Shown: positions 8,401-63,890 of the stretch, piece after piece | How the letters are laid out: each line of letters opens with the position of its first letter | How positions within the stretch are numbered: position 1 is the stretch's first letter | DNA from: Liolophura sinensis | Taxonomy: Eukaryota > Mollusca > Polyplacophora > Chitonida > Chitonidae | Assembly: GCF_032854445.1 (NCBI RefSeq) | Contig: NC_088300.1 | Location: 47,528,984 to 47,592,983, forward strand | DNA: 64,000 nucleotides | Direction of reading: 5' to 3' | The notes under the pieces: model-generated | What the model was told of the DNA's origin: nothing | Database searches by the model: none | Seen by the model: the letters and a program-made list of their open reading frames with translations, nothing else | Program-made: the position numbers and the translations under genes

Positions 8401-9684
8401 TTTTCAGGAGAATGCATCCTGGTATGACTGTGTGTGTGGTGGTTTGAAGGGGAGGTTTGTCTGTCCATAGTCACAATCGTTACAGCTATCAATTCCAGGT
8501 AGGTGTTCCCATGTGTCATCACTAGTAAATCCACACCAGCATGAAATTATAGTGGAAACTGGATAAATTCCAACTCCAACCACCATGTTTGAATGCATAC
8601 TCCTCTCAACCAATACATGGGAGATAACTAATGACACTTCTAGCATATTTGGTACATAATCTTTTCTTCAATTTTGTTTAATTTACATAAGGAATGTTTT
8701 TAGTGCTCAGTGTTGATTATGGTTCCCTCTAGGTCCTTACTGGTGTGACTGATCCTCAACAATCAGCCATAATGCATGTCAAAAGGTCTAACTTGACTAA
8801 TAGTTGCAGTGGTAATTGCATACGATTCCACTCACTGTGAGGTGTATGTATTCAAACCTGGCTGTTGGAGTTGGAATTCCTCCAATTTCCACCATAGTTT
8901 CATGCTTGTGTGTGTTTACTAGTGATGACACATGGAACACCTACCTGGGATTGATAGCTGTAACGATTGTGACTATGGACAGACAAATTATTTGGTGCCC
9001 TGCAGTAGTATACTGAAACCAGCAAGGTATGTTTATGGAACAAGATAGAGCACTGATAGCATACATAATCACAGCCCTAAAGAGCTAAAAAATGGCAAGA
9101 TTTCGCTACAGGTTAAGCAGCCATGATTTTGGCATATCTAAAAAATTCTCAATCTACCAGTGAGTGTACTGGTACTCAGATTACTTGGTCCTCGTTAGCT
9201 TTTTTTATCTTCCTAGCCACTTGATGTAGATGCTTGTGGAACTGCCAATCTGTGTGATGACACTTAAAATCCGATAATGTTGTATACCTCTGTTATTTGT
9301 GTTTATCTTCCAAATAACCGAATAAAGTACATATTTTACAAATAGCACGTTTTACCTCTCGCAAATGAGTCAATTTATCAACAGGAATGACGAAATATAT
9401 CCAAAACGTTTCTCTTTACTGAATTTTAAAATTAGTGTTTGTTGAATTAAAGATAACACGAAATGACAAGTTGTTGAAACAACGCATCTTCAGGACTGTT
9501 ATAAATGCAAGCAACAAGCTGGTTGGTTAACATGACGTTGTTGTTGTTGTTTTAGGCAGATCACAAATGACGTCCAATGTTAGGACACCTTACCCATACT
9601 CCCTGGCCTCAAAATGGAAGGATTTTGTTTCTTCTTGTCATCTGGCGGTTCCGATTGAGTGGAATCCGCGATGTTCTCTTCCAT
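2445..9684 (-). CDS. CACUL1: CDK2-associated cullin domain-containing protein 1 (CACUL1), eight exons
   Basis: In vertebrates CACUL1 is a cullin-repeat-like protein that binds CDK2 and promotes G1/S progression. Exons in coding order: 9684-9594, 7968-7842, 7212-7104, 6803-6708, 5725-5623, 4195-4106, 3601-3460 and 2541-2445. All have AG acceptors and GT donors, and the phases join into 284 codons plus stop. Matches to the vertebrate protein, recalled from memory, run collinearly: [19 protein letters not shown] (about residues 38-56), [18 protein letters not shown] across an exon junction, [16 protein letters not shown].., and [12 protein letters not shown]. The N-terminus before the cullin-like core is only about 30 residues, against roughly 125 in human, and lacks the proline-rich part. 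The last exon is ambiguous: a GTAAGT donor at 2500 and an acceptor ending at 2445 would replace the readthrough tail with an exon 2444-2317 (308 residues). Identity is very secure; the tail is not. Confidence 0.93.
2563..2645 (-). repeat. SINE family C tail fragment
   Basis: TTTATTTATT run followed by a diverged reverse tail (tacttaagaacatttcactg acatgatagtgg). It lies in the last CACUL1 intron. Confidence 0.55.
2794..3154 (-). mobile_element. tRNA-derived SINE, family A, full length
   Basis: On the minus strand it begins with a tRNA-like head carrying a Pol III A box (TAGCACAGTTGG) and a degenerate B box (GGATCAATCC). The body contains the block from AGAGGAAGTTGTAACTTC to GAGCGGTGGAAATCCGTCC. 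The 3' tail is GTCATATGACTGAAAAATTG..GTTAAACCCCAAGCACTCAC. A perfect 14-bp target-site duplication (aaatagacagtgga) flanks it at 2780-2793 and 3155-3168. It lies in the last CACUL1 intron. It resembles the V-SINE/MetaSINE type elements known from molluscs; the exact family name is not certain. Confidence 0.9.
5103..5121. repeat. Poly(C) run, 19 bp
   Basis: Uninterrupted C run in a CACUL1 intron followed by a CAA microsatellite (caacaacaac). Confidence 0.9.
6081..6396 (-). mobile_element. tRNA-derived SINE, family A
   Basis: Same head, body and tail as the copy at 2794, with internal deletions. The flanks carry a 14-bp direct repeat with one mismatch (tggttgttattcgg at 6067-6080, tggttgttatttgg at 6397-6410), so this was an independent insertion. 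It lies in a CACUL1 intron between the exons at 6708 and 5725. Confidence 0.87.
8457..8987. mobile_element. Fold-back element with about 150-bp inverted arms (CACUL1 intron 1)
   Basis: Left arm 8457-8611 and right arm 8836-8987 are reverse complements with scattered mismatches. The outer ends are TTTGTCTGTCCATAGTCAC and its inverse GTGACTATGGACAGACAAA. The loop of about 225 bp has no coding capacity. This suits a non-autonomous DNA element with long terminal inverted repeats. Both arms are in the CACUL1 intron 7969-9593, so the pre-mRNA could fold into a long hairpin. Confidence 0.8.
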
Positions 9685-10008: not shown

Positions 10009-10224
10009 CCATGCTCGTGAAATCATCCAATGCCATGCTCATGAAATCACCCAATGCCATGCCCATGAAATCACCCAATGCCATGCCCATGAAATCACCC
10101 AATGCCATGCCCTTGAAATCACCCAATGCCATGCTCATGAAATCACCCAATGCCATGCCCATGAAATCACCCAATGCCATGTCCATGAAATCACCCAATG
10201 CCATGGTCATGAAAACACCCGGGC
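10009..10224. repeat. 24-bp minisatellite, about 9 copies
   Basis: The unit is CCATGCCCATGAAATCACCC plus AATG, with few substitutions. 24 is a multiple of three, so long repetitive open frames appear on both strands, but flanking sequence does not extend them as coding. The array lies about 330 bp upstream of the CACUL1 start codon, outside the transcribed exons found. Confidence 0.92.
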
Positions 10225-13559: not shown

Positions 13560-13730
13560 TCTCCGACCGTACGTGGGAAGGTGTGTCAGCAACGTGCTGA
13601 AGTTGGTCGTGGGTTTCCCCCGGGCTCTTCCTGGTTTCCTCCCACCATAATGCTGGTCGCTGTCGTATAAGTGAAATATTCTTGAGCACGTCGTAAAACA
13701 TCAGTCAAATAGATAGATAAATAAATAAAC
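13560..13730 (+). mobile_element. SINE family C, 5' truncated
   Basis: Starts near gaccgtacgtgggaaggtgt, continues with ggtcgtgggtttcccccggg and cctcccaccataatgctggt, and ends at the ATAAGTGAAATATTCTTGAG tail, CAGTCAAAT and GATA/AAAT repeats. There is no tRNA head. Confidence 0.8.
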
Positions 13731-16485
13731 ATGAAGGAAAAGGAGAGGGACAAGCAAGGAGCCTCATGGCACTCCACATACTTTAGTATGTGTCTGGGTT
13801 TTGTTAATAACAGCATTGTGGTTTGCCCCAGTCTATATGATGCCATGGAGTATAGAATCCGTGCTTTTTCCGAATCCGTATTTTTCTACTTTGTAAGCCA
13901 GATTAACAATCCTGATATCAATTGCCCTTTGAGTGTCCATTTTAAACTACTTACAGTACTTGCGATTTCCTGTCAAAACATTCAGTTAAGAAGTCAACAT
14001 TAGTGGGTCCATATCCGATTTCTTCCCACCGTATTCTTGAAATATTCTTGAATACAGCGTAATGCGCCAATAATATAAATAAATAAATCTTAGTTCTTTA
14101 AGATTTGTTTGGCTAGAGTGGTTGTATACAGGAAATCAAAACCGCGACTTTCGTGACTAAAACGCTGCTTTACCTTTGCACTACCGGTAAGTGTTTTGTT
14201 AACGCACGTACACGGAACAGTCTAACAACTTAAGAAACGACTTTCAGATTGACAAATTCTAGGTCACACGTATATGAACGCTGCACACCTTTCCACGTAC
14301 AAAATATTTTTAAATTTAGCCCTATAATAACTTTTGCGACAGGGATTCATCTCTCGCGGGTTGACTGTAGCAAATACTGACCATATATTTGAAAACGAGA
14401 GAAAATTTCACGCATGATTACAGAAGGCACTATGCATATATGTCCTAAATTTACCTTATATAGTAGAGGTTACTTATATATCTTATGTGAGACAACCTTA
14501 CAAGGTGTGATTCTAGAGCCATATATTCCTTCTTATGAATAAGATCTGCATGTGTAGTGTATTTATTTATTTATTTATTTGACTGATGTTTACGGCCAAG
14601 AACATAGTATACTGTACAGCGTAGATTCTGACCTTGAATACATACAACTCGTCCTAATATATATGCGAAAACGTGTACAAATATGAACAAGTACATGTTT
14701 ATGCATATGACGTACAGACATAGAATATAATTTAAAACATTTAACACATGTAGATGTCATGAATTGGAAAATGAAGCGCGTCATGCTATATTCTACACCT
14801 TTAGGCATTATAATTAGTTCAAGTAAAGGTTTGCATATATACAATATGTCATTTCGATAAAATTGAGATGTGCTGAAGAGAGTGTGCTTTGTTTTCACGG
14901 AAGACGATCGTAATTATTTATGATATATAAATATACACTATATATATACCCCGTCTATTTAACTGTGTATGTAGCCTTGTGCAATCAGTACGCATGCCTG
15001 GTGATATCTGTCTCGCGTATCTGCCGTGCATGAGGAGAAATATATACGTCTTTAATGAACAGTCTATTTACTACGTGTTTGGACAGATGTGACAGTGAGT
15101 AGGATTTTACGCTTTTATTTTGCAACCACAATTCTAACATTTGAAAGTGATACACTATTTCAAGCTGCGAATGGTCGTGGGTTTCCCCACGGGTGAAGGA
15201 AATTACCAGACAGAGCTCTGACGATATCAATGCATTTCGCCAGATATATCTGTCTTACTATGTAACCCACGCGTGACCGCGCTCAAAATGACGGGAGCTG
15301 GATTATACCGCTCAACTGATCTCACTGGTGCTCGAGTACTAGTATACGATCTGAACTGAGACACTACATACTGACTCTTCCATCAGCCATGTCTTAAGTT
15401 GTCTATTTCGTGCAGGCTGTTAACTCACCATTGGAATGTATGACAGTATGTGTTGACAGATTTGAACCGCTGTATATACAAATACTTTCACTGTTATTCA
15501 TGTCTAGTGCGCGTAGTAACATTAGAAAAATGACGGTAAAGCCGCCAAATCTCCCTATACGTTATATCGTCTACTGTGGGACAGCTGGGCCATGATTACT
15601 TGCCTCAGGGAAAACTGCACAGAACCCATATGAAGGGACATAATTTTTTCATCTAAAAACTGTACAGTCTATCTATATAAATACATGTAGTCTCGCCTGG
15701 TAAAGAGCAACCAGTGGAGAGCCTCTATATATTAGTCAGACGAAGGCTGAAGCTTCACAAAGACACTCCCTTTCTAGGTTTATTTCTGCGTTATAAATTG
15801 TTACGTTATCACTGAGGAGGGAGAAATATGAGTTTATAATGTTTATATAAACATCTGTCTAAAATGGATGTGCTTCAAAGTTGTTTAGATTGTGGAATGC
15901 AAGTTACATTGAGGCGGATCATCAAAGCTATCCTGATTGATTGTTCATGTTATTAATGATAATCGTATTATAATGTCCTATAGGTGAGAAAAACGAATTG
16001 TTATTGAGTGTTAAACGTGATGATAACACAGCATTTTGAGTAATTCTAGGTCAGTAAAATTGCAATTAACATCACTACATTTTTTACATAATTCTACTTA
16101 AGCCATATGGCAACAGGATTCGTGTATTTGATACTATATATACGCATTTACAGGAACAGTTAGATTTAAACTGCGGTAAACTGACAAGGGGCCGTTTTTC
16201 ACCAATTATACGTATGGCCATTTTTCAATTATCACACTGTCGGCGTTGCTCTGGTTTTACTTTCCATACTGTAAAATTAAGGCTTTTATTCCATGTGAAA
16301 TAACAAACATCCAACATCCCCACATCCGACATCCCATCCCTAAGAAAAATACCTTGTATACGCAACGTGTACTGTTCTTATGGATAAGTGTCTTCTGGTG
16401 TAGGATCACTCCTGTTTGGTGTCAGAGCTAGCGGTTATGGCAAATGTTTTAAAGGTTTATATCACCACAGGAAGCAAATATATAC

Positions 16486-23106: not shown

Positions 23107-23235
23107 AGATGATTTATTTATTTATTTATTTGATTGTTGTTTTAGGCCGCACTCAAGAATATTTCACTTATACAACGGCGGCCAGCGTTATGGTGGGAGG
23201 AGAGCGGGCAGATCCCGTAGGGATTATGGACACGC
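23107..23235 (-). mobile_element. SINE family C, 3' half
   Basis: In reverse orientation: (ATTT)n, gattgttgttttaggccgca, CTCAAGAATATTTCACTTAT, then the gtgggaggagagcgggcaga block. The head is absent. Confidence 0.78.
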
Positions 23236-26200
23236 AAACGGACGAACGCACAACAACCTGATTAATGGAAACATCACAGACATATTCAAGTGACATGGTT
23301 GAATTTTTAAACAAATTCTGAGTGTGACGTCGTAACGAAGCTTTAAACTTCGTTCATAAACGAAATCACTCAGTTGAAATAAAAAGTATTCATTGAGTAT
23401 GTAGCTTGTCCGAGCCCGGAGAATCCCTGCTGTTATTCAAATTCAACACAGAGAGGGCGGACCATTTTGCTTCATTAATGTTTAACGGGAAGGGCCCGAA
23501 GCATATGCGCAGTGTTCGGAAAGTTCCCGATGATACCGACTTTCGATCAGTCGACGTACTCGGATAATTTCGAATATTGATACACATAGATACAATCAGA
23601 GTATAGCGGCTTATCCAGCATTGAGAAAAGGTCACAAATAATCTTCTCATTAAACTAGGAATCAGAAACTTTTATTGTTCGAAGTTTAACATCCCCTGCC
23701 AATAACAACCCTTTTCTTTCTTCAGTGTTCTCCACCGTTCAATCTGACAACCAATTACAACTCTAGACTTGCTTGTCAATCAGTCGAGCTCATTTTTACG
23801 CTTCTGTTTTTTGGCCGATCCTGTCACGAGCGAGCCGTAAGTCCTTCTTTCATGCGTGCAATCAGCTATGTTTGTTTACATATGAAGTTGACCGAACGCT
23901 GTGCTGTACTCCATTTCCACTGAATTGACAGCGCCTTATTTAAATATTCTGGCCGAATTTTCATTTTTTTTAAACATTCACTTAACGTACTTTGCTGGTG
24001 GTGGGATTAACGAAAATGTTGTGAATTTTACTTCTTGTGAAAAATACCCAATACTCAGCTCATTCTGCAATAACACCAAAATACCTTATATTTGGGCGAC
24101 CATGTCACTTTAAACAAAAGTAAAGAAGAACCTTTCCTTCTAATGTAATTCACGACACAGCTGTGCGGTTTATTGTTCAATCTTAAATATAATTCCCAAA
24201 AATATTAACATGAAAAGCAATTGAGTAGAGTGTGTTCAAACTGAAAACACAAACACAGCCACCGTCCACGTCACGAACGCCAGGACAGTTCCATTTTCCT
24301 AATAAAAAAAAGGGGAATTTAGGTTGTACTGTGAGTGCGTCTACTTCCTCCAAAATCTGACAGATTTTGCATTTTTCCAGAATGAAGTAAATACTTCAAA
24401 CCTTCGGACCATCGTTCTCAAACAGTGGACAACTCTCGTCTGCTGTGCGCTACCTACATGATTTGAACACGACAAGCTACGTCTTATTTCTTAATTCCTG
24501 TCTTAGCGATGACGTAATATAGTGCCGGTGTGTTACAGGGGAACAATGGTACACCCGACTTGGACGCTAGTCGCCATCAAGCCAGAAAAAGTATCCCGTT
24601 GCAATTACGCCAGAGACAGGATCGTCTATATCATTTCATTTAGGCCACAAGATCTTAAGCAATAATGTTACATGTTCGAATCAAGCTCGGTTTCATCCGT
24701 TCATATCTAGGAACTCAGTTTAGGGTGTGAAATATTCTTCAGAAGGACGTCAAAACTCTAATAAAATGTGTAAAAACAAGAATTCTTTAAGACGAATACT
24801 TTTCTAATTTTGTAGGCTCCATTAATTATGCTTGTTTGGCAAGAATCGCGTGCCACGAAAACATTGCGCAGATATTGTAATAGTAAGTGGGGAGGTTAAG
24901 GCCATCATCGTACTCGTGCAAGTGTTATTTTGTTCCATCGCCCGACGATAGTACGGTGATGGCTGTAACCGGCTTCCATTCAAGAAACCAATACACCGGT
25001 TATGATCTGTATCATATTAAGCAGTTAAATCATTATACCATGACAATTAGGTGCAGTAGAGCACCGTCACAAGTAACAATAGCAATCAGTGATACAGGAG
25101 TCATTACAGTTCAGGCGTGGAGCTGAAACAATCTACAACTTTCAACAAAACCGTCATAAAATCACAAGGTAGACAAAGAGGCCATTTGAAACAGCATTGA
25201 AACACAGCTGACCAGGATATTTACATCAGCAACCATTAAACAATTAGCTGTACATTTCTGTGTAGCAACGAACCGTTAAGGTCGAAATAATTCCAACCAG
25301 TTTTGCACAGCCATACAGAAACTAAACAAATACCTTTAATCAGGAACTAGATCAAGATATTCTTACAAACGAAAACGATTATACCTGTAGCAATGTATTG
25401 TTCAAAGGTATACAATGAAACAAATACTGCATAAATTATCATCGGAACACTCGTAATAAGGCCTATAGGTATCTTCATTATAATTTTCCTCAAAATAATT
25501 GAAGCTAGGAAAAACTGCCAAAAAAGGGATATCTTAACGGCTAATCTGAACTGCGCGGGCAAGAACAAACAATTCGTAATGGATTTCAGGAAGCTAATAA
25601 TTAATAAATTAACCGCATGTACTGTCATCACATGCAGGCTCCATTTCACTTCACTCATTCTTTTGGTTTCCGCATCGGTTTCCTCACTTGGTAATTGCAC
25701 TGGGTTTCCGCCCTTCGTTAAGGTGCTCCATTTCCGCCAGCCGAGTCACAGTGTGTATGTATCTGGTCTTCATATTCCTCTACGTTAAGATGAAGCATGT
25801 TAATTGTTTATATGCCCATTTCTGTGCTGAGGCCTGGACGTATCTCATCCCATATCCACCATTCCTCCCGTATACCAGTAAAGATAACCACCCCATATAC
25901 GGATGCGTTTTCCATTTGTCTCACTAAAATTGCATGCACATTACATTAGGATTTGCATACATGTGTGACAGTTGCTAAAAATAAGGTACTGATTTGTTAT
26001 ATATGTACGTATTCAAGTTATGATGTGGTTTGTGTCTTAATGTGCTTTTATTGCGTGCAACACCTTTTTGCAACGTATATGTACAGCCGTGATATATCTG
26101 TGTTTTGTTCTATCTTTGGTAGTTTTCTCCAATCATATTATAGGCCTCTTGTAAATTCCATGCTCTCAGTATACACTCTGACGTCACTTTGTACAGAGAA

Positions 26201-26487: not shown

Positions 26488-29400
26488 TCAATGATAGAGA
26501 AACTCTGGTCTCCCGGGGCTGTCAATCCAATTACACGTTTGATGTATGTGGGCCGTCTCATCAGCTGGGATCAGCCGTAGTTGATTGTCGAGCTCATGGC
26601 CGCCTGAAAACACAATGGCATAATGAAACAGAGTTAGTGCCCTTTATATAAAGAATACACTGATGTGTAGATTTCATTGCATGAATTTAGTTTAATGTTA
26701 AGCGGAGATATTTTTAACCTTTGCTTTTGAATTTCCTGTATGAGCCACGTACAAATTTGGGGTGAAAATAGATTTACAATGATGTTCAACGCCTGGCCAA
26801 ATGTAATACAGAATACAGAAGGATAACAAATCCTCTTTCGTATGATTTGAAGACTAAGAAACCTATTCTAAATGCCGGTTGTAATAGGCAGAGATATAAT
26901 TAATATGCTCGATTGCTTGGCATAGTCAATGAAATTGGTCAAAATACCGTGGGTATGTATATACAAAAAAACGATCGTAAATCTTCGTGGAAATCGTTAT
27001 AGAATTAGCTTTAATGACAACTTACTGTTCAAGCGCGACAATTCGTAGGAGTAATATGCCGACCCGGTTAGGGGAGTGATTTTAAAACATACGATTGCAT
27101 CCATTGTAGAGTTGTTATAGTTTTTGGCTCTGAAGAAAAAGAAGAAGCAAACAATGACATCTGACTGAGGAAAAGGTAAGGCACTCATTTACTAACCAAC
27201 AGAATCAGAAATTGCACATGTAGTAATGTAATAAAACTGCGTCCATTTGCCATGCAATAAAATATATAGCATTAATATGTGTCTGCTTCTGCGACAAGAA
27301 AGGAAAACAAGACCAACCCCCTCCCCCCCAAAAAGAAACAAAACAAAAAAAATATGAAAGAACAAGTATCTTAGTGTTTTGCAATAATGCGGTGAAAGTG
27401 CAGAAATACCTTAGTAGGAATAAATTTCCATCGCGTTTATCACAATGCAAGCTTAGTGTGGACCGGTCAACCAAATGGTATATCAGCGTCTTTGGGGTGA
27501 AAATTGCCTTTAGGGCGTGGATATAGGTTATGTCCCACTCTCCGCGCAGCTTTTTTGGAAATCGGCATCCACTACCTGAATGTAAAGAAAGATCGCAAAC
27601 TTTATGATGGTTAGAATGTTACAGCCAATGGTTTTACCAGTAACTGTATATTACCTTTGATAATGCCATTACTACAGGCACATTGAACACCTTTCAAAAC
27701 TAAGGCATTTGGGTTATCTTTTCCTGCAAAATGGCGAATCGGGTCCAAGCCCGATTGTCCATTTTGTTTTTGTAAAATATAAGCATTACGCTGGCAGACT
27801 GGCAACATATCGTCATAGCAAATGTAGAAATGAACGACAGACTGCACAGACTGGGTTCGAATTACTTATCTGCGGTTAATGCTCACCATCTGAATTTCAT
27901 GTTTCCTCAATGTAAATTGTTATCATTCGGCTCTCGTCAGCCGAACGCCCCCTGGCCAAAGAACCAATTTGTGTCCGAGTGGTCAGACCAGTGTATTTGG
28001 AAGAGGTAAGCCCAACATCGGATGGGGAATCACGGAGATCCCTCCACTTTCAATGCTCCAGGGAGATTGGCGACTATAAATGGCCAACAATACTTGAAAG
28101 GCCATTTAGGTGGCCTTATATGAAGTTTATGGGTGATCACGTGCATCCCACCAATATGACATACACCCTATACGCTTTATGAAAAGACATGTGTCCAATT
28201 TGCATGAGTGCTAGTCAGTTACTTGCCCAAAACCGGTTGTGTACTCTGGGAACTCTGGTTTCCTTCATCCATAAAACTGAGTGCAACGTTAAACACCCAT
28301 TTAATGAATTAATTAATACATGTGTTTATGGCAGACGTATAAAGTCAGGCAAACAGCTACTGCAATTAAACGACTGATACGTTGGGAATGCCTTAGCTCC
28401 GGGATAAGGATGCTGACTGAGGTTTATATCGAACACTGCAGAGCAGTTTAATATAGTAAAATACTGATTTACCTTTTTAACTTCAATGCTAAGACTAATA
28501 GCGAAGCCATACACTGACGACTAAATTGAAATATTCTAACACAAGAAGCAATGTAAGTGCCATGTTTACGCTGATAGCTGCACGACCTTAATTACAATTA
28601 CACACATTTAATCGTTGATGATAACAGGAACTCCTTGACCCACCTGCTCGCCTGATGAAGGCAAAGGCTTGTCTGCGAGACCCATAAAGTAGATCACAAG
28701 AGGTATCAATCTCGATGGGTGTGTTGCGATTCACGGGCTTGGGACTGATCAGACTGAAACTGTCTCCGTTTGCTAAGTTAAACGAGAAAGCAAAAATTAA
28801 GGTTCATACAAGATATAAGATTACAGTAAAGGCCCAATTTAAGACATATATCTATCCAAAAAGAGGTTTTACCCATTCAGCATTCCATTTCTATATGATC
28901 GTATTTTCCATAGTTTTTACAGAAATATCGGAAGCACCGCAATGCATTGTTTTCACAATGAACTTCTGTGATGAATTCTCTAATCTATATCAGTTGACTT
29001 ACAGTAAACAGAACAAGGAATAAAAGGGATACGGCAAAACATAGTTCAGTTCAAGGTCAAATTTGTCTCATAAGGTTGGGGACGAAACGATTGTTAAACT
29101 TCCGTATAATGGCAGGATTTACTGCTTGCAATCGCAAGAAGATTCAGTCATCTGGAAATATAGCCCGAGTAACTGCTACTCACAGCTAAGTCATAGCTAC
29201 AGATACAACCAAACTTGATTCTTCTGATTTTTTTAGTTGAGGGTTAACGTTTTCAAATGAAGCCATCTTGTTGTACCAGGTGAGCACAATGCTGACCACA
29301 AAAACATGATGCATACCGATGACACCATGTCCCGCTCACTAATAATATAGTGGCATGGCCCACTGAATGTCAGACGAGAAGGTGCGAATATTGCAGGGAT

Positions 29401-32400
29401 TGCATTTACATGCGGTCACATGTCTACACACATATTTGCGAGAAAATTTGGTTGCACTTACAGTTGAGTCGTAACATCCCGTACCCCTCGTATGGCGACA
29501 CCCCCAGGTAACTAAAGCCTAAACACAACACTCCATTCTTTATTTTCGGTGTCCTGTGGGTTCTGAATAAAGGGGAAATACACCAACTGAAGAATGATAT
29601 GAACAGTGACATTAAACATGCCACAGTGACTAAAGTCTGAACAATTTATGGGGACAGACTATATATTGATGAATGAAATTTCATTTTTCACTCACGCAGG
29701 TTTACATGTAAATGTCAAAAATTTCTTTTGTATTAAATGATACTACAACTCATAAATCAAGGTCAACTGAATGGCATTATGATATAAATAGAACAGTGAA
29801 ATATATGCAAATGCATGGTTTAGATAAGGAAAAACGTACAGCATTAGATCTAATTATATACCTCAGTAAATATATGTTTCCACGCCTTTCTAAACACTTG
29901 TATCGTATTTTGGTATTATTTTCTTTGTTGACGTAGATTAATGCATGCGCACGAATCCTCATAAAACCTTTGTTCTTCCTGTCTTTGAAGAACCACTTGT
30001 CTCGTAGTTTCGGGCTAATGTTGCAAGACTGACGACCTGAAAACAGTGACAAAAACAAAATATAGTAGAAACTGAAAAGGGTTTGAATATTTGACAGTTC
30101 TGAACAACTTTAGGCTACATAGCTATCTTCTGGCGCCCCTTACGGCAAACAGAGTCAAAAGACCACACACCTGTTTCCAATCTAAGAACAGACTGGGTAT
30201 GAGAGTCGGAAAATGAATCTGAAATTTTACACCCAGGGAACCTCAAATTTTCCTGAATACATTATGGACTTTACTGACCTTATTGCTTTATTACTATATG
30301 TCGTGACTGAAGTTAGGCAAATAGATCATGATGGTTACCCGGTACAAATAATTGTGCTTCCGTACATAAACAAACGTAAAACCATATGAATATCATAGTT
30401 AAATCCAGTTAATCCGTGCAAGGTGGACGTACATGTAACTGAACATCTTCATCCACAGACTATTTGGAGTTGGATGACGGTATGAAAACGGCCTACGTAC
30501 TACCATCTAACGTCGCATGGATTTATTATAACATATTAACATGTGCAACCCATCAGCTTCAACTGACTCGTTGTTGTACTACAATACCAATGGAGTTTTT
30601 TGTTGAGATTACCCTGAATATAATCTGACGATGAACAGGTGTGACCGGTTGCCGGTATTTCACGATAAACATGTGTGGCCTGTTGCCGGTATCTGACGAT
30701 AAACATGTGTGATCGGTTGCCGGTATTTCACGATAAACATGTGTGACCTGTTGCCGGTATCTGACTATAAACATGTGTCATCGGTTGCCGGTATTTGACG
30801 ATAAACATGTGTGACCGGTTGCCGGTATTTGACGATAAACATGTGTGATCGGTTGCCGGTATCTGACGATAAACATGTGTGATCGGTTGCCGGTATTTCA
30901 CGATAAACATGTGTGACCTGTTGCCGGTTTCTGACTATAAACATGTGTCATCGGTTGCCGGTATTTGACGATAAACATGTGTGACCTGTTGCCGGTATCT
31001 GACTATAAACATGTGTCATCGGTTGCCGGTATTTCACGATAAACATGTGTGACCGGTTGCCGGTATTTCACGATAAACATGTGTGATCGGTTGCCGGTAT
31101 CTGACGATAAACATGTGTGACCGGTTGCCGGTATCTGACGATAAATATATGTCATCAGTTGCCGGTATTTGACGATAAACATGTGTGACCGGTTGCCGGT
31201 ATCTCACGATAAAATTTTGTGATCGGTTGACGGTATCTGGCCATAAACATGTGTGATCGATATCTGACGATGAACATGTGTGACCGGTTGCCGGTATCTC
31301 ACGATAAACATGTGTGATCGGTTGCCGGAATCTGACGATAAACATGTGTGATCGGTTGCCGGTATCTGACGACAAACATGTGTGATTGGTCATGTTCTCA
31401 ACTTAGCTTCCATATTGAATCGCTGCCTACTTAAACCAGGAACTTGGTCTTGTCGCTTGCGCTGTCCTCAAAGTGTAAAAGCTATAGGCGACAAGAAAGG
31501 TATTCCGTGATCATATAATAATTCTGAATTCATATCACCTGAGTATGATCGAGCAAATAATAATTCAAAGGGAGCAGGCCACGAGATCTTCAGTCTACGA
31601 GCAGAATTCCCGTTTATGCAGGCATACAATATAAAAAGATAACAGCATAGAGAGCAAAACCAGAGCACTGACGACAAAATGTGCCATGGTTGGTAAGGGG
31701 TCAGAGCCTCCTGTCAATTTACCTCAGGATTTTGGTCTAAATTTCATTTAAATGCTTAAACAATAGCAACTTAGATGCCCCCAAGCACAACTGAATAAGC
31801 AGAATTAGGTAAAACTAAAAGCAGTGTTGTCAATTTCAACTGCAGTTTATTAGGCACCAAAGGTTTAAAATTACTCTAGTATCTACTCTAGTAAGTATAT
31901 GTGAGTATAAGGCTGTAGAAATACATGTAAGTATATTCGTACTATGAAATACAGTAGTATTTGCGTTTAGCAGTATATATGAGCAGTGTATGAATGTAGA
32001 AGTATATATACGTGCAGTCTTGGGGTATAGATCCGTCTTACATTTTCGGTGTTTATCTCCATGTATTACTAAGCTCACTCTGACTGGATTACATGATTCA
32101 TCCACATGACAATTTGTTTAAAAAATCTTTGATGGACAGCACATGGCCTCTCGCCATTTGGAACTCTGGACAGCCAAATTTCCTCTCCGCACATGCCGAC
32201 AAAACTATTCATGAATATACAATAGCTCTGATTACTGTTTCCAGTGGCATAAAGAGAGACTTCAACTGTGTTATTATATTGCTATTATATCGACAGCAGT
32301 TTGGAAGGGAATCACATAATTACAACGGTTTAGCAAATGATGGACGTAATGGGTATGATTGAGGGGGGTTTGGTAGCTCGTGAGGGTGTAGTCCGTAAGT

Positions 32401-35400
32401 TGTATTGTACAACTAGGATTATATCGATCTCTTGGCGTAAAAAAATAACAATGGGCAAAGCATCATATTCGGGAGGATATACATGTATGGACGAATCCAT
32501 TCATGAACATTTCTGGCATCGGCAATATTTACCTATAAGATCAAACTGTCTAGATTATGGTAAAGTAAGTTATACTTCCTCAATCATAACCATGCAGGGA
32601 TAACTTTAAACATCATAGATTAATGATAACACAAACTGATTTACTGATAATTGATAAATTGTAATGTATTGATTGGATTGTGCAGCCAAGTGTTCTATTT
32701 CATTCCCATCCCTTCAACAGATTAATGAAATAAAACCAGGCACTGGTTGTTGACGTAAAAATCTAAACTTGGTATATGAAGCACAGTGGGGAAGTCTATT
32801 TTTTAGGTTTCATAATGAACTGTTTTGAAGCCATAGAGTATCACTGATTTTTTTTCCCGAAATTTTGGCCTATATCGCCAAGAATTCTGAATTAAGAATA
32901 TTGAGTTAGGAAAACAATAAAATAAGTCGCCGAGCAAGATACAATATTCCAGGCAAGAAAATCATGAATTATTCCCTTTGGTCAACTCGGTAAACGTCGG
33001 TAAATCCTATTTTCACAGCATCAACTTACAAGGTCTTCTTTCTGCAGTCTTGCAATACAACTCTGACGACTGAATCCTAAACCAACCGACAAAAAACGGG
33101 ACAGCTGTTAGGGTACTTTGTCCTAATCAATCTCAACAACCGGGAATTAATTACAGCTGTTCGCCTAATATTAATCAAGGCTTTTGTGTTTAAGCGGAAA
33201 AACAACTTATCGATTTCTGCTTCATTAGATGGCGTTCCAATAGCGATATTAACCAAGTTGAACGTATTCCACTGAATGCCGGTTGCTTTAGCTGCTGCCG
33301 GAGCCCTGATTTCCCTGTGCGTTTTATTACCAAAGTCCAAGAGGTGCTTAAATTGAGCGGCTCGATGTGGGAATATTCATGGACACCAATTTGGTCGGAG
33401 ATACGATCTAATAACTCAAGACGAAGAGTTCTTTTTGAAGAGTTTATACCACAATGCCTGACTAAGCATTCGATTTGTTTATTACCTTGGTATATCCCTC
33501 ATTATTATTACCACGCGAGATTGAATAATTAACAAGTTGTTGAAAAAGAACCTTCTGGAAATGTTCTTGTCCTTGAAAGCCAGTTCAGTTACGTATATAT
33601 GAACATCAAACCGGAGGCACATAAATTCGCCCTTTTCGTTACAGGCAAACTTGTAGGCCTATATCTGTTGTCCCTCAACGTACATATGGAAATCCTTTCA
33701 GGCCGCAATTTCACAGATTTCCATGGATTGGCATTATGTGCTTAAGAACAGTATCATTTTAGTTTATGTGTAATCGAAATCACAATCAGCTATATGTGTA
33801 TGCATATAATAAATCAGATATAATGGTTTGTGTACTTGTATTAGACAATTTGAAAAAAATATTGTTTATAGTCAAACTGTTACTTATTTAAGCCTATAAT
33901 GAGCAATCAATCAGAAAGAGAAACAAAGGGAATTTCTCAATTATAAGCTCGATCTGAGAAGAGAAACAGCACATTCTCTGCATTAAATGTATGTCACAAA
34001 CACTTCAAAGTATCAACTGGAAACTAAGCTGAGAAAAACAACGGAAAGATGTAGTTGTGCATGCATCTACATGAGAGACATCTTTTGCACATTTACTGAG
34101 ATTTTACGCACCCAAATCTTAACCGTTTTTTAACCATGTACAACTTCAGCTGTTAATTAGGATGTAATCTTTGTGCAAGGTTACACGACTAGTAAGATAT
34201 TCCGAACGAGTAGAACTCCCACTAGGTACAGAACACCCCGGAGTAGCCCACCTGTTTTCAGCAGCTGGTTGTGTTGATATAATGATCGTAATGAGATCTA
34301 GGTGACACGGTACAGGGTCTCTCGTATTTCCAGTGTAATACTATGTCTGTCAATTTTCCCTCAGCTTTGATATTGTTGGTCTTCCACAGAATATTCCAGG
34401 ATACTCCACCATATGTGTTTCCTTTTCATACATGTGGCTAATACTGTTTAAAAATCTTGTTTGTGTTTATTGATATACTGTTCGTATTTTATTGGTGTTC
34501 ATGATGTTGCACTTAGAGTACTTCACTTAATATGTATACACCTCTTCTCAGCTTTATGGTAAAAAATTAAAAAAAAAAGCCGGAAGTAGCCGCTGGAAAT
34601 CAAAGCTCTTTGCTAGTATTTGACAAACTGCATCTGACTTGAAGCCGCAATTTACGTTTAATTAATTACTGTCTTCAACGTCATGCTGTTAGTTACAATT
34701 GTTGACGATTATTATTTTTTTTTTTGAGTAAGTTGTAAACAGAGTACAAAAATGACAGAGGGTTTCTTGGCAAAATCTTACATCAAGTGTATATAAAGAC
34801 GCTGTCGGTATAGCGCTACGTTAAATAAGTATTCAGCAATTCCGCGTCAGTCAGCAAATAAAAAACATTTTCCTCCTATCAAAGGTATCACAAACCAACA
34901 TGTGACAGAGAATCCAAAAAGGATACTTTTTCATTGAAGTTCCACTACACGGGTATAAGCCCACAGGGCAAATGGCTTTCGTTGCTCTGTATACTTCCTG
35001 GATATAAGTTACATTATCGAAGTGTTAATGTACGTCACACCTCTGGCGGGATGGGTGTTTTGCGGGTCTTAAAACATCGTTGCCTTAGTACTCATTCCCC
35101 TTATAACAGGTGTAAATAGTCGGCCCGCTCTCCTATGGTGGTCCACCCAAGGGTAGCCAGAATTGGCTGCATCAACTATGAAGTTAACGAGTACTTCCCC
35201 TGAGAACCGGTTCACCTTTAAAGCGCTAAGAGAGGTCGTTGGCCTCTCAGTCCCTGTTTTCGTCCGCTCGTAAGATGCCAAACGTCAGTGCCATGGTCAC
35301 AAAAGAATGCTTGGAAATTAAACCTAGCTTGTGAAATAAGGGCGATTTCTTTCTATTCTTGTACAGCCAACAAAGAATATTTGGGTGAATCTAAGTAATT

Positions 35401-36322
35401 AAATGATAGTAATTCTATTACTTACTTTGAAGCAACATTTTCTTTGTTGGATGTATTAACCACACACCACAAAACAAACTTACTATTTCAAAAAGATAAC
35501 CACAGCTCAGAATGAGCTATATAAGCCGTTCTCCGTAATTTGTTTTCCAGCGGTTTTCAGCGTTGTTTCACCAATACGTAGCAAGCCAGACACATGTCAG
35601 CATATTGTAGCGCTGTATCACGGGAACGCCAAGACGAAGACACCAGACCTGACACCCGCCCAGTGGTAGTACACAGACACTAGACCAACCCATACTGCTG
35701 CGCTACTGGAACGCCTGGGCCACTGCAGTGTGGTCGGTTAACCATGATGTTGATCGGAATGACGTCATAGCAGATATAATCAGCTTTGTTTAATGCCACT
35801 ATCTGTGTTGTAACAAGTTGAGAAACTTAGCAATCTTACTGATGCCTTAGTTGTTTGCCGCTCCCAAAACTAAAGTAGTAAGCGTTGAATGAGCACAGTA
35901 CGTGCTTCTAGTTCTCGTGACATTGCGTAGGCGAAGAGAAGTATTGACAACCACCTAGCGCGGTGGTTTATGCTTCTTGTGCCAAGGAAATTTTACTTTG
36001 TTTTATGAATGTATAACTGACGACTGTTGTTTCTGAAATGTTTGTGTTGCAGGGCTACCCGTCTTTTGTTGTATTTGATCTATGATTTATGACAAGCGGA
36101 ATCTAGTGGGGAGCAAAAATATCACATGTAGCTATCTTAGACAATATTGAAGGTGGATAATTTTTACTAAAATACAAGTAGGCTGATGTAATATACTTTA
36201 CGACATTCGATCATAAAAGTAAAAATGAAATGGTATCAAAATTGAAAGTACTTACAAAGCACCATGTCCAAAGTCATCAAGGTGATGAAAATTAGACCAA
36301 GAAGGGTTGCTCTCATTTCCAT
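26488..36322 (-). CDS. Secreted two-module cysteine-rich protein, eight exons, uncharacterised invertebrate family
   Basis: Exons in coding order: 36322-36256, 30036-29862, 29562-29462, 28772-28644, 27864-27655, 27575-27410, 27129-27026 and 26603-26488. Phases fit throughout, giving 355 codons and a TGA stop. Exon 1 encodes a signal peptide (MEMRATLLGLIFITLMTLDM). Exons 2-4 form module 1, with cysteines near residues 27, 70, 94 and 140. Exons 6-8 form module 2, with cysteines at 231, 272, 297 and 341. Equivalent exons start and end in the same phases, and both modules share C-x(4-5)-KLR-x2-W, ..GN-[IL]-[YF]-LLR and L-x-RLN. Exon 5 is a separate linker with C173, C181, C219 and C221. Module 2 opens CRFPKKLRGEW, the C-x-FP-x2-L-x-G-x-W signature of uncharacterised extracellular proteins common in molluscs, brachiopods and arthropods (DUF7042-7045-like, from memory). 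Function unknown. Weakest points are the exon 5 acceptor (only AAG, no clear pyrimidine tract) and the start: an in-frame ATG at 36418 would add 32 residues before the signal peptide. Confidence 0.82.
30621..31390. repeat. 34-bp minisatellite, about 22 copies
   Basis: The unit is about 34 bp, gtgtgaccggttgccggtat followed by ctgacgataaacat. Two main variants alternate irregularly (tttCAC/ctGAC; gtgacc/gtgatc), and one copy near 31255 lacks the CGGTTGCCG part. It lies in intron 1 of the secreted-protein gene, about 600 bp upstream of its exon 2. Confidence 0.93.
35595..35725 (-). repeat. Family B-like SINE fragment
   Basis: Contains cgaagacaccagacctgacacccgcc-type sequence and a nearby related duplicate, similar to the body of the family B element at 38732. 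Neither end is recognisable. Confidence 0.4.
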
Positions 36323-36419
36323 TTGGCTATTCAGTTGCATAATGGTATGATCTTCAGAACTCAGGAAGCGGTGCTCGACTGAATGTTTCCTCACCACCCA
36401 ATACAACCACTCATCCATG

Positions 36420-38031: not shown

Positions 38032-38233
38032 GGGGCCCTCAGTGGCCGAGGGGATTAGCACGCCAGCAAGGCGCAATGATCCATGGGCTTCCCACCAATG
38101 AGGTCGCTGTGAGTTCAAGTCCAGAGCTGTCTTCCTCTCCAACCCTAATGCTGGTCGCCGCCATATAAGTGAAATATTCTTGCGTACAGCGTAAAACGCC
38201 AATCAAAAAAAATTAAATAAATAAATAAACAAC
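38032..38233 (+). mobile_element. tRNA-derived SINE, family C, full length
   Basis: The head resembles a tRNA-Leu/Ser (A box TGGCCGAGGGGATTAGCACG, B box GAGTTCAAGTCC). The body has the widespread ATAAGTGAAATATTCTTG block, and it ends CAATCAAA..(AAAT)n. A 13-bp direct repeat with one mismatch flanks it (tatgaagtaagta at 38019-38031, tataaagtaagta at 38234-38246). Confidence 0.88.
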
Positions 38234-38731: not shown

Positions 38732-39058
38732 AAGTCGTACTTAACTATGTTTCAGTCATATGACGACAGAGAGTCATTAGGTGTTTGTACATATATTGTG
38801 TCTTCTTGTGGCAGGGCAAGTCCATGCCTCCAAAGTGCTGCCGCAACTGAGGAATCATATCGAAGACACCAGGTGTGACACCCCACCGTCACATTATACT
38901 GAACACCGGGCCAACCAATCCTGTTTCCTTGTTCTAACCTCTCAGTGCTGAGTGCCAAGCGATCCAGCAATAATTACCATTTTTTGGTACGACGATACCC
39001 GGGTTTGATCCCGGCATCTCCGGACTTCAAGGTGGCCACTCTAACCGTTATACACCGA
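38732..39058 (-). mobile_element. tRNA-derived SINE, family B
   Basis: On the minus strand the head is a nearly complete tRNA-like sequence (A box TATAACGGTTAGAGTGG, B box GGGATCAAACCC). The body differs from family A (..GGTGTCACACC..GGTGTCTTCGATATGATTCC..). The tail, CGTCATATGACTGAAAC..AAGTACGAC, is related to the family A tail. Confidence 0.85.
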
Positions 39059-45876: not shown

Positions 45877-46030
45877 AATGTTGAATTTCCGACACTGAAA
45901 TAACTGTCATCAGATCAATGAAAAAACTGGCTCGAGTGGTGTCTAGCCCCGCCGTCCTGAGTTAGAGTCTCACTCGAGCCAGTATTTTCACTGGTCTTGA
46001 GATTGTTATTTCAGCGTCAGAAATTCAATG
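45877..46030. mobile_element. MITE-like hairpin, 154 bp, with 11-bp direct repeats
   Basis: An almost full-length inverted repeat. The left arm has cgacactgaaataac..aactggctcgagtg and the right arm has cactcgagccagt..gttatttcagcgtcag. A perfect 11-bp direct repeat (tacaacaaacc) flanks it at 45866-45876 and 46031-46041. There is no coding capacity. Confidence 0.83.
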
Positions 46031-48250: not shown

Positions 48251-49753
48251 TCAGGCCTCATAATTTGACGAGAATGATTGTTAGGTTATGTGGAGGTTAC
48301 GCAATTTGTACTCTTTTGGCTCAAATTCTGGGATATTTTAGCTATTTGCAGTCATGTGGTCCTTCTAGTTATTAAATAAAGACTTTATTAAGCTGATAGC
48401 GTCATACGATCTAAAACTGACCGTGTTTGGGGAGAACAGCGATAACTGTAACGGTCTTACACTTTCTGTTTGTTTACCCACCTCACAGTTACAAAATACA
48501 TGTAGCAACGCGGGGTTACACAGGAGGAAGTCTGTGCGAAGTGATGAGAGTGCTCAGGTGTTTGTACATGTATTTGGGTGTATGAAAGTAAATGTTAGCA
48601 AGTCAAGTCAAGTGTTCGTGTTCAGTGATTAGGAGAAGTAACAAATAGCACATGGTTAAAGCATGGAAAACTTTGACCACACAAGCCAAACAACAGCAAC
48701 ATCACAAACTATCAGTTAAGACACATGTCTCTGCTGTAACCGGCAAGGTGAATATACACACTACTGGTGGAAGACTAGTGGTCTGGAATTAACATTAAAC
48801 TGTGCAGATGTCCATACCAGTAAGGCTGCTTTTTGTAACAAGCATTGAAAGCCAAGGAATTCACAAATCCCCTGTCCAAGCTGTGCATCTAGGACAATTT
48901 CAAGAATGCCAGCTGAAGTCAAACCATTTTATATCTTGGAATCTCTTGGAATGCCAACAAAAATTTATCAAACAAACTCACCAAAGCAGGGTCTCCTTCA
49001 AGAGTAAAATCCCTGATTTTTAAAGTTCTTAAGTAGGGATAAGACATTAGTAAAGCCTCAATGACATCTGCATACTGGGAGGGAGGGAGAGAGAAAACTG
49101 AAAGAATAAAAACAAAAACTCAGATTTTTATATATACACTTATTGTATATGCTGTCAAATAAATCGCAAATTTAGCTGTAACAGTGACCTTAACACCAAG
49201 AGCATCTAAAGTGCCAGTTCTGCTGACATCTAACTATACACCCCTTGATCTGGAGGTATTTAGGACACATAAAGTACCCATTTATAGATAAGGTTTGTGC
49301 AGGACACTACTGGCCACAATGACAGCTAGGCATGTGGTCTCAGATGGCGTTGTTGCACCTTTGCTGATCCTTGTAATCTGGAAGCTTACCTGGGCGACCC
49401 ATGGAATCAGCAGATTTACAAGCCTTTTACCATCTGTCCAGCGGGTAAACACAGACCTCTAACTTTTTAATGTTATAATTGTGAGCAAAGTCTTTTCTCA
49501 CAAATTTAAAAAAAATGAAGGGCTGTATAACTACTCACAAGGTGTATTGTGTGATTTCTTCATACAAAATATCCATCAGCGCACTGGTTTGGGTCTTGTC
49601 AAGAGGTTTCTTTTTCTGGAGAGCAGCTTACAATCTATTCCCAAACTTGCTAACGGGCAACAGAAATTGTCTCCATGCCTTCGGCCTACTGGACACTTAC
49701 ATGGGAGAGCTTCCTTCCATAGAGTCATTTTCCATCTCACTGATACTCTGAGT

Positions 49754-50296
49754 GTCACCATTTGCTGATGTACTTGGTTATCCAGCTAACTTGTCGTCAT
49801 TTGCTGATGTACTTGGTTCTGCAGCTAACTTGTCACATTTGCTGATGTACTTGGTTCTGCAGCTAACTTGTCACATTTGCTGATGTACTTGGTTCTGCAG
49901 CTAACTTGTCACATTTGCTGATGTACTTGGTTCTGCAGCTAACTTGTCGCCATTTGCTGATGTACTTGGTTCTGCAGCTAACTTGTCACATTTGCTGATG
50001 TACTTGGTTCTGCAGCTAACTTGTCACATTTGCTGATGTACTTGGTTCTGCAGCTAACTTGTCATCATTTGCTGATGTACTTGGTTCTGCAGCTAACTTG
50101 TCGCCATTTGCTGATGTACTTGGTTCTGCAGCTAACTTGTCACCATTTGCTGATGTACTTGGTTCTGCAGCTAACTTGTCACAATTTGCTGATGTACTTG
50201 GTTCTGCAGCTAACTTGTCGCCATTTGTTGATGTACTTGGTTCTGCAGCTAACTTGTCGCCATTTGCTGATGTACTTGGCTTTGCAGCTAACTTCC
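49754..50296 (-). repeat. 39/38-bp minisatellite, 14 copies, originally coding
   Basis: Fourteen head-to-tail copies of a 39-bp unit. On the minus strand the unit reads DKLAAEPSTSANG in the same frame as the flanking pseudogene exon. Copies vary only around the ATTTG junction. Nine are 39 bp (in frame) and five are 38 bp, having lost one base in the codon before GAC. On the minus strand the first six copies (about 50296-50065) stay in frame; the first 38-bp copy then shifts the frame and reaches a stop after ..ANVTS. The outermost copies at both ends are the most diverged, as usual for arrays that turn over in the middle. Confidence 0.92.
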
Positions 50297-51209: not shown

Positions 51210-53836
51210 TCACTGTACAAATACTCTATATAATATTTCAAAACAAACATTCTGTCCTCCCCATCTGCATATAACCCGAAAAGGATATTGGTCGAATAAA
51301 TGCCTTGGCTGAGAAAGTGCCCACTGATCACTTTCTTCCAAAACACAGGCATGGAAATGAACACTAAACTTTTGTGTGTTTAGATGCCTCAGCAAAATGT
51401 CCAATGGTTTCCCCAAATCAAAGATGCAGTCAATCATACCCAATTTATAACAGGTTTTAATCAAAGCCCAGCACAATTATTCCTCCTGAGGAATACGTTG
51501 TGCCTTCAAATGTAGCTGAACTGACCTGCTACACTATTTCCTGATCTCCTAAAACCTCTTTTAATAGGTTTTGAACACTGTGATTAAGGAGGCAGACTGG
51601 TATTGCATTGCCCTTACGAGTATCTGTTACATCAGACTCCAAGTAGTTTTCGCTAGCATAGTGTATACACTGCATTTACTTGTGTCTCATAGCAAACATA
51701 CTACAAATGTTCACTTTACTTCTTGTGCTATTAGCAACCTCCTTGAAATAGTTGTGCTTGCTTCAAAACGCAGTGTCCAGCAATGTTTAAATGGACCAAA
51801 CTGCCAAATCTGATATGCATAATGCAGTAAGTAATGAGCTTTTGGTTTCACAGTTATATGTATATCGTCGACACTCTCAAAAATCTGAGACAAAAGCTGT
51901 TCTACAAGATCCCCTACATAAGCTGCATCTCCAACTGCTAAAATAGGAGCACAAATCAAGTCAACCATGTCCATAAACTAATAGAAAGAACTGAAAAATG
52001 TACATTCTCTTCAAGAACATATTAGCCAATCATCAAAGGGAGACTGGCCCCAATAGCACTGTTGGCAGAGCGTCCGCTTTGGGAGCAGTAGATCCAGGGC
52101 CACTGCTGGGTCGAGTCACATTTAAGACCTTAAAAGAGGAAGTTGTAACTTCTTCGCTTGGTGCTCAGCATGAAGGGGATGATGCAACAACTGGTTGACC
52201 CGTATCAGTATAATGACTTAGGCGGGGCGACTTACTTGCCTTCAGTAAGGCGTCTCAGTGAAGCAGCACTAGATAAAAGAGCGGTGGAAATCCGTCCTGC
52301 AACAAGGAGGCACATTACATGCACTCTAAGGATTCCTTCGTTTCCTTTCCTTGACAACTCTTCTGCCATGACTGAGGGTTTGTTAACCTGATCACTTTCT
52401 TGATTAGGGAACATTCAGATTTTTTCATTCAAATCTTGCAAGGTGAACAATCCTTCCTTTTTTCTCTATCACTACCTGCATTACATCTGACCCAAACCCT
52501 TCAAAGATATCATGCGATATATCTGAGGGCATGTCTCCTATTGCATGAAAATATTTTAGAATGTTAAGGGGAAACCTTTCCTTGATACCATATACTGATG
52601 CCAGCTCTGGATTTTGTTCTGCAAGATCTATCTGCATAGTGTATGTAAGTGGTGTTCTGAATGTTAACTTTGAATCTACAACCTCTGTCTGCATGATTTC
52701 CCAGAGCCGAAAAGCTCTCAGTTAGACCAGAAAATGAGTGAGCAGCTACGTTATCTGAAAGAACCATTAAAAATGTGCCCCGAAAAAGTAGAGACTCCCC
52801 ATCAATTTGAACTGGAATACCCTCACTTTCCAATGCCAGAACATTTGCGATAAGAGGTTTCAAGACAACATTCCACCCATTTTTTTTTTTACAAGATGCG
52901 CTGGATAAAGTAGACCAAGCTGAACTGCATGGAGTTTTGACTTCTGTTTGGGTTTTAGATTTCCCAGTGTGAAATACACTGCCATTATCTTTTATTTCTT
53001 AATCTTTGTACCTAAAGGGTTAACCACTCGAAATTCATCTGCATATAACTGAATCTGTAAATGCTTAGAATCTTCTTTGAACAATGGATGGCTTTTGAAA
53101 ATTCTGACATCACAGAAGTCTCCCAGTAAAACATCTGTATATGAATGTCCATTCAAAACTTAAGCTAAACCATCTTCATGCTTGAGTAAAGCATTCAGTG
53201 TAGCTATCATGGGTACATACATAAAGGTTTCAGGTTTTTTATGGTTATGCCTTCCTAGGATAATTTCAACTGGCTCAATGAAATCAAAATTCTGAGCAAA
53301 GTAAACTATTTTGTTTGAAAATAGATGACAATGCTTCACAACTGGACTCCACTAAAGCAAATCCATTGAAAATGTCACAGAGACCATCAAATTGTTCTAC
53401 AGCAATCTGATTTTACAAAAGTTTCATTTTTGCAGGACTGAAATTGTTCTTGAATTTCCTTTACAATGTCTAGACATGTACTGACAGGTAGTTTCCTGAT
53501 TTCTATGAGAATAAGAATAAAAAGGGCAATCTCTCTTTTCTGGTGTGTCCCAAAGCCATGTTTAAATCATTGTTCTCACCTACTGATTTGTTCTCCTTTG
53601 TGTTGTGTCTACCCACTGCATATCGAGTAGACATGTACAGTTCATAAAAAATGAGACTGTTGGTTTTTAATATGTTTTGTATAGGAATCAATTATTGAGA
53701 ATGTTTTCTGGCATTGATCAATTCCACAAGACAACCGAAAACCGTGCTGAAATGAATGTGTAACACGATAATGCCAAAGCAAAAGAGCAAATTGCGAAGT
53801 ACTAAAATTACAGCTGTTGCATGGAAACTTTGACAT
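51210..53836 (-). pseudogene. Decayed multicopy transposon-like protein with C2H2 zinc-finger head
   Basis: Pieces of one protein lie in order on the minus strand but in shifting frames. Near 53836-53660 are two C2H2-like fingers, opening MSKFPCNSC and LSCGIDQC. At about 53225-53158 is YVPMIATLNALLKHEDGLA. At about 53075-52940 are QIQLYADEFRVVNPLGTK and, after an in-frame TAA, VYFTLGNLKPK. At 52863-52690 is a region with SLLFRGTFLMVLSDNVAAH, then in another frame (52694-52425) PSDISHDIFEG. After a SINE come KPKAHYLLHY and FGPFKHCWTLRFEA (51974-51711), then the C-terminal block FHACVLEES..W (51476-51210). I recognise this order from an abundant family of uncharacterised animal proteins. Its HD-x3-EG block and wide copy number suggest a DNA transposon origin, but the superfamily cannot be named from here. 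Multiple stops, frameshifts and a nested SINE make it a relic. Confidence 0.75.
52046..52350 (+). mobile_element. tRNA-derived SINE, family A, 3' truncated, nested in pseudogene
   Basis: Plus-orientation copy starting ggccccaatagcactgttgg and continuing through the AGAGGAAGTTGTAACTTC and GAGCGGTGGAAATCCGTCC blocks. The common GTCATATGAC tail is missing. It interrupts the transposon-like pseudogene between its HD-x3-EG block and its KPKAHYLLHY block. No clear target-site duplication was seen. Confidence 0.85.
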
Positions 53837-53949
53837 ATTGCTGGTTATTGTTAACAGAAGTATCAAAGAAATACACAACATTGCCTGTTTGATTTTATTA
53901 ACACAGATTAATTTTGAACTATTTAGACTACACTTAACCAAAATATAAG

Positions 53950-57691: not shown

Positions 57692-57991
57692 CACCCGGGT
57701 CAGGTCATACTAAAGGCTTTTAAAATGGTACTTGCTGCTGCCTCGCTTGGCTCTCAGTACTAAGAGGTTAGAGCAAGGAAACATAAATCGTTGGCCCGGT
57801 GACTATATAGTGTGACTGGTACGTGGGGTATTATGTTCGGTGTCTTCGGCATGATACTCCAATGGCGGCAGCACTTTGACGACATGGACTAACCCTGCCA
57901 AAACAAGACACAGTTTATACCCACGCTTATTGACTTCTCGCCGTCATATGACTGAAAAATTGTTTAGTACGAGGTAAAATCCCAAGCATAC
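57692..57991 (+). mobile_element. tRNA-derived SINE, family B, head-truncated
   Basis: Matches the family B body (tcggtgtcttcggcatgat, cactttgacgacatgga) and ends with cgccgtcatatgactgaaaa and a C-C-C-A-A-G-C-A terminus. The tRNA A-box half is missing or diverged. Confidence 0.78.
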
Positions 57992-58030: not shown

Positions 58031-58267
58031 AAGGGGGCTCCGTTGCCGAAGGGGTAAGCACGCCAGTACAGCGCATTGGTCCATGCAGGAACATCCCACC
58101 AATGTGGTTGCTTTGAGTTCAAGTCCACCTCTTGCTGCCTTGCTCTCCGGACGTAAGTGGAAATAGTCGTGGGTTTCCCTCGGGCTGAGCTCGGCTTCCT
58201 CCGACTGGCCGCCGTTGTATAAGTGAAATATTCTTGAGTACGCCGTACAACACCAATCAAATAAATG
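58031..58267 (+). mobile_element. tRNA-derived SINE, family C, full length
   Basis: Head ctccgttgccgaaggggtaa, B box gagttcaagtcc, core cgtgggtttccctcgggct, and tail ataagtgaaatattcttgag, then caatcaaataaat. A 9-bp direct repeat (atttatagg at 58022-58030 and 58268-58276) looks like the target-site duplication. Confidence 0.86.
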
Positions 58268-63774: not shown

Positions 63775-63890
63775 TGTTGTTTTTCAAAACTATATACGAG
63801 GGAGGCCAGCATTATGGTATGTGGAAACCGGGCAGAGCCTGGGGGAAACCCACAACCATCCGCTGGTTGCTGAAAGACCTTCCCATGAAA
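63775..63890 (-). mobile_element. SINE family C core fragment
   Basis: Reverse-oriented core: ggaggccagcattatggtat, gaaaccgggcagagcctggg and cccacaaccatccgctggtt. The tail is diverged and the head is absent. Confidence 0.75.

Follow-up and report, generated by a model that had tools for sequence, protein, structure and literature searches.

It was asked whether the minus strand of a stretch of DNA from the chiton Liolophura sinensis encodes a protein that is built twice from the same module and, if so, to which family of proteins it belongs. The window, that is the whole stretch analysed, comprises 64,000 nucleotides of contig NC_088300.1, and all positions given here refer to it. The locus is probably a genuine animal gene of an ordinary type, belonging as a divergent member to a known family to which no function has been assigned. 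The reading that we favour, with reasonable though not full confidence, is that of a small secreted protein in which a signal peptide is followed by a DUF7044-like module, by a linker exon that is short and has two cysteines, and by a DUF7043-like module; the two modules would derive from the duplication of a three-exon block. The introns and the distribution of the Pfam families concerned suggest an animal gene, and we presume that it is expressed.

Gene model and linker exon

Rebuilding the eight exons of the minus-strand gene from the sequence resulted in 355 open codons followed by a stop, with end phases of 1,2,1,1,1,2,1, which reproduces the join and the phases of the original prediction. 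The exons and their competing versions are listed in Table 1. Splice sites were scored using approximate frequency matrices that were not trained on the host species, and acceptor percentiles are ranks among the 7095 AG sites of the window. On this scale, the splice sites of seven of the eight exons are at or above the 89th percentile.

Table 1. Exons, competing exon versions and a possible poly(A) signal of the minus-strand gene
Feature	Position	Strand	Characteristics
Exon 1 as first proposed	36256..36322	minus	Start MEMRATLLGLIFITLMTLDMVL, hydrophobic and resembling a signal peptide; donor gtaagt, phase 1, 91.5th percentile; hydropathy peak 2.57
Rival exon 1	30339..30396	minus	MIFIWFYVCLCTEAQLFVP; donor gtaacc, phase 1; 302-bp intron to exon 2; junction codon Gly
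Exon 2, module 1 start (Cys 1, KLRxxW, Cys 2, GNIYLLR)	29862..30036	minus	Acceptor 99.6th, donor 91.8th percentile; DUF7044 match begins at residue 25
Exon 3, centre of module 1 (Cys 3, MLRLN)	29462..29562	minus	Acceptor 99.4th, donor 96.8th percentile
Exon 4, end of module 1 (Cys 4)	28644..28772	minus	Acceptor 94.7th, donor 99.9th percentile
Exon 5 revised	27655..27723	minus	69 bp, phase 1-1, split codons at both ends, two Cys, GKDNPNALVLKGVQCACSNGIIKG; acceptor 99.6th percentile
Exon 5 as first proposed	27655-27864	minus	Acceptor 7.9th percentile
Exon 6, module 2 start (CRFPKKLRGEW, Cys 2, GNLFLLR)	27410..27575	minus	Acceptor 99.1th, donor 89.1th percentile; DUF7043 match
Exon 7, centre of module 2 (Cys 3, LSRLN)	27026..27129	minus	Acceptor 100th (rounded), donor 97.0th percentile
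Exon 8, end of module 2 (Cys 4) with the TGA stop	26488..26603	minus	Acceptor 98.9th percentile
AATAAA, poly(A)-signal-like hexamer	26047..26052	minus	436 bp past the stop; a single hexamer

The exception is exon 5. The acceptor originally proposed for it, at 27864, lacks a pyrimidine tract and ranks at the 7.9th percentile, whereas an alternative acceptor at 27723, in the same frame and phase, ranks at the 99.6th. Therefore exon 5 is probably 69 bp long and the protein 308 codons. For the separate cysteine-bearing exon that had been predicted between the modules, the acceptor scores indicate that it probably comprises 23 codons with two cysteines rather than 70 codons with four. Furthermore, with the acceptor at 27723 a glycine is the junction codon on both flanks of the exon. 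This fits the glycine-rich module borders described in PMC8001218, as well as the description in PMC1626468 of proto-splice sites of phase 1 at glycine codons.

It is unlikely that the linker differs from this 23-codon form, being either the 70-codon exon first proposed or absent altogether. All three options, it is true, leave the frame open, resulting in 355 codons with the acceptor at 27864, 308 with that at 27723 and 285 when the exon is skipped. Since exon 5 is symmetric (1-1), open phases are no evidence for it, and more generally a symmetric exon cannot be validated by open phases alone. The four cysteines of the 70-codon version make an even number, and a third route with phase 0 on both sides leads from a donor at 28606 (94.5th percentile) to an acceptor at 27841 (91.8th); set against these are the contrasting ranks of the two acceptors and the exon 4 donor at 28644, at the 99.9th percentile. 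No Pfam match to exon 5 was obtained, neither for the 70-codon version alone nor for the revised one as part of the complete protein, and homology is thus no help in choosing between the versions.

The beginning of the gene is uncertain, with two candidate first exons (36322-36256 and a rival at 30396-30339). The former, as first proposed, would be joined to exon 2 across a putative intron of 6.2 kb and has in-frame ATGs upstream, at 36340 and farther away. A scan of positions 46000-30100 on both strands for a start codon, a hydrophobic stretch and a phase 1 donor returned nine minus-strand starts with six distinct donors; three of these starts are nested within the proposed exon 1. Two starts were found on the plus strand of the same span, showing that such candidates arise by chance too. 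The proposed exon has the highest hydropathy in the scan (2.57 versus 2.22 for the rival), while the rival has the higher donor score (2.2 versus 0.3) and results in 305 codons with glycine at the junction. A 34-bp tandem repeat of 22.8 copies (30623-31390) lies within the putative 6.2 kb first intron.

Two homologous modules and their family relationships

Judged from their sequences, the two modules are clearly homologous. Exons 2-4 and exons 6-8 align end to end with 25% identity, and a BLASTP comparison of module 1 with module 2 gave 30 identities in 134 positions (E 5e-7). Their global alignment has a z of 11.4, with none of 2000 shuffles scoring as well. Upon masking of the cysteines the z drops to 4.1 (10 of 2000 shuffles as good), the local z then being 4.9 (3 of 2000); therefore, the cysteines carry much, although not all, of the similarity. 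The cysteine spacings are 43/24/46 in module 1 and 41/25/44 in module 2.

Both internal introns occupy the same alignment column and have the same phase in each module. The first splits the R after GN-x-x-LL in phase 2, the second splits the S after RLN in phase 1, and in each module an intron falls on the GN-[IL]-[YF]-LLR border and another on the RLN-S border. As the alignment ignored introns, the shared columns and phases are independent support for a block duplication. The original prediction that exons 2-4 and 6-8 represent the same module was thus borne out in phases, cysteine spacings and border motifs, with a similarity beyond chance, and the proposed duplication of a block of three exons draws support from the sequence, the cysteines and the introns, in both position and phase. 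We considered a recent event and rejected it, as a comparison of the two blocks at the DNA level gave no match better than E 0.65; with no clear similarity left in the DNA, the duplication is an old one.

Module 1 is flanked by phase 1 introns, one ahead of exon 2 and one following exon 4; module 2 has one ahead of exon 6, and its far side is formed by the stop, with no intron. Phase 1 borders have been described for extracellular class 1-1 modules (PMC8001218), and the module of the window resembles these in being bounded by phase 1, cysteine-bearing and probably extracellular. Unlike the class 1-1 modules that are spread by exon shuffling in the same paper, the module is here made up of three exons and repeated within one gene. 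Phase 1 has also been described for introns near signal-peptide cleavage sites (PMC1626468). In the proposed scenario, one three-exon block bounded by phase 1 introns would have been duplicated, giving rise to the two modules.

The start of module 2 had also been taken to place it among uncharacterised extracellular invertebrate proteins akin to DUF7042-7045, which are animal families in Pfam. The whole protein of 355 codons passes the Pfam cut-off of 27 for DUF7043 (30.6 bits) and DUF7044 (29.7 bits), with two matched stretches each, and the revised protein of 308 codons hardly differs (31 and 30.1 bits). The single modules fall under the cut-off: module 2 reaches 22.2 bits for DUF7043 and 17.4 for DUF7044, and module 1 reaches 16.8 for DUF7044. 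Module 1 matches positions 1-52 of the 94 of DUF7044 (PF23071), the second half of the profile being without a match, whereas module 2 matches positions 3-68 of the 104 of DUF7043 (PF23070), including the CxFPxxLxGxW start. The other half of the proposed link did not hold: neither DUF7042 nor DUF7045 gave a Pfam match in the window protein up to E 10, and a tblastn search of the window using approximate units of both gave a best E of 0.86.

No literature was found that names DUF7042-7045, PF23070 or four InterPro numbers taken to belong to these families. The locus provides concrete anatomy, in the form of splice sites, phases and cysteines, for a divergent member of the little-studied invertebrate DUF7043/DUF7044 family. 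It also suggests that DUF7043 and DUF7044 are one type of module, which can be duplicated as a three-exon block.

Comparison was made with one multi-domain relative, a sequence that is approximate, as are its units. In Pfam it scores for DUF7044, DUF7042 and DUF7043 in that order, at 96-153 bits. For DUF7045 it reaches 34 bits as a whole protein, with the best stretch on its DUF7042 unit, and 22.1 bits, below the cut-off, with the last unit alone. The cut-off of DUF7043 is passed by the DUF7044 unit of this relative too (52.2 bits), and for DUF7045 its DUF7042 unit gives a weak match (24.3 bits, below the cut-off). These two cross-matches suggest an A-B-A'-B' repeat in the relative.

The window protein shows A-type modules only, without DUF7042 or DUF7045. 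It shares with the multi-domain DUF7044-DUF7042-DUF7043-(DUF7045) proteins, whose architecture is here that of this one approximate sequence, a richness in cysteines and the order of the two A-type units. In a four-row alignment of the two window modules and two units of the relative, C, W, C and C are invariant, while the fourth cysteine is not common to all. It is worth weighing, though we consider it rather doubtful, whether the modules correspond directly to the two units, DUF7044 and DUF7043, of a multi-domain A-B-A'-B' family, where the B units (DUF7042, DUF7045) were lost and no separate duplication took place. The best matches, DUF7044 for module 1 and DUF7043 for module 2, follow the order in the relative, and the two families look related given that its DUF7044 unit passes the DUF7043 cut-off. 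However, the modules of the window resemble one another (in this comparison, global z 10.4 and local z 8.8) more than they resemble the units of the relative. Global z against the latter is 0.5 (m1-A1), 1.2 (m1-A2), 0.7 (m2-A1) and 4.4 (m2-A2), and local z is 2.1, 4.0, 3.6 and 4.7, respectively; moreover, the relative behind the counterpart reading is a single, approximate sequence. The duplication of a three-exon block within this gene is the explanation that we prefer.

Exon 5 as a remnant DUF7042/7045 unit was also considered and rejected. Aligned globally and locally with the B units of the relative and with either window module, its 70-codon version reaches a z of at most 0.03, and it has no Pfam match.

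Further relatives were sought in other collections. Module 2 against viral contigs returned four stretches that fit the pattern, none of them a relative; the approximate relative, queried as halves against the same contigs, had one further stretch confirmed and 0 distinct loci. A 17-residue match of these halves in a viral contig (E 4e-5 within candidates) was treated as chance. Among genome contigs, alignment A1 gave 26 stretches and the first half of the approximate relative 16, again without a relative, and this first half had no match in phage records. As the viral, genome-contig and phage collections are not animal genomes, absence from them says little.

Predicted secretion and fold, and possible role

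Both candidate first exons encode a hydrophobic N-terminus, and the 308-codon version has no strongly hydrophobic stretch past residue 25 (19-residue maximum 0.84), as a membrane anchor would need. The hydrophobic start and the absence of such a later stretch point to secretion. The product would have 305 or 308 codons, depending on the choice of first exon. Each module may form a beta-rich domain stabilised by its four cysteines, to judge from these cysteines, the family assignment and a weak structural model of a single exon; this predicted structure, of exon 6 aligned with exon 2, has a short helix and four short strands at low confidence (mean pLDDT 56.7). The pair of domains might then serve outside the cell as one unit of binding or adhesion that presents two related surfaces, a putative role of the paired modules that we put forward tentatively.

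A G-x-W motif is a mark of lipocalins, and module 2 has one. Together with the four short strands of the low-confidence model, this brings to mind a lipocalin/calycin-like barrel, with G-x-W after the first cysteine and a beta meander, carrying a hydrophobic ligand. A sequence search of the PDB with module 2 returned a weak match to UnaG, which has a calycin fold (E 2.1, residues 9-73 versus 4-71), but this is chance level, and the top match of the same search was an antiporter subunit (E 0.48). A two-module profile against the PDB matched a fatty acid-binding protein entry, STK_08120 (E 0.12), and a toxin-domain entry (E 0.4), neither of them significantly; the fold of STK_08120 we take to be other than a calycin barrel. 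The four-row profile matched nothing in the PDB up to E 10, no lipocalin family was matched in Pfam up to E 10, and module 1 has D-K-W where G-x-W is expected. A search of the literature on lipocalin introns found nothing relevant. We consider such a barrel very unlikely. Still less credible is the combined reading in which the DUF7043/7044 group has an independent branch of A-linker-A type, with its own class 1-1 three-exon block duplication and without DUF7042/7045, whose modules would be lipocalin-like barrels that have gone unrecognised.

Other features of the window

Ten open frames picked by eye were compared with Pfam; for eight of them nothing was matched up to E 0.1, and another had a weak DUF4248 match below the cut-off. 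The remaining frame, on the minus strand at 53645-53971, has a C2H2 zinc finger match near the cut-off (24.4 versus 25.2 bits).

A dispersed repeat is present at 2788-3154, 6081-6394 and 52043-52341, the copies being 73-87% identical. At 3079-3150, Rfam matches a tRNA (31.1 bits) that overlaps one of the copies and that ARAGORN does not report, and the repeat is possibly a tRNA-derived SINE. A second dispersed family occurs in both orientations, at 13574-13731, 23112-23217, 38038-38231, 58038-58266 and 63793-63885. Inverted repeat pairs are formed by 8456-8608 with 8836-8987 (90% identical) and by 38735-38983 with 57722-57972 (76%). Minisatellites, open in more than one frame, are located at 10009-10220 (24 bp) and 49753-50294 (39/115 bp). 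Imperfect palindromes lie at 45881-46028 (about 149 aligned bases, 75% identical to their own reverse complement) and at 35362-35455 (about 95, 74%).
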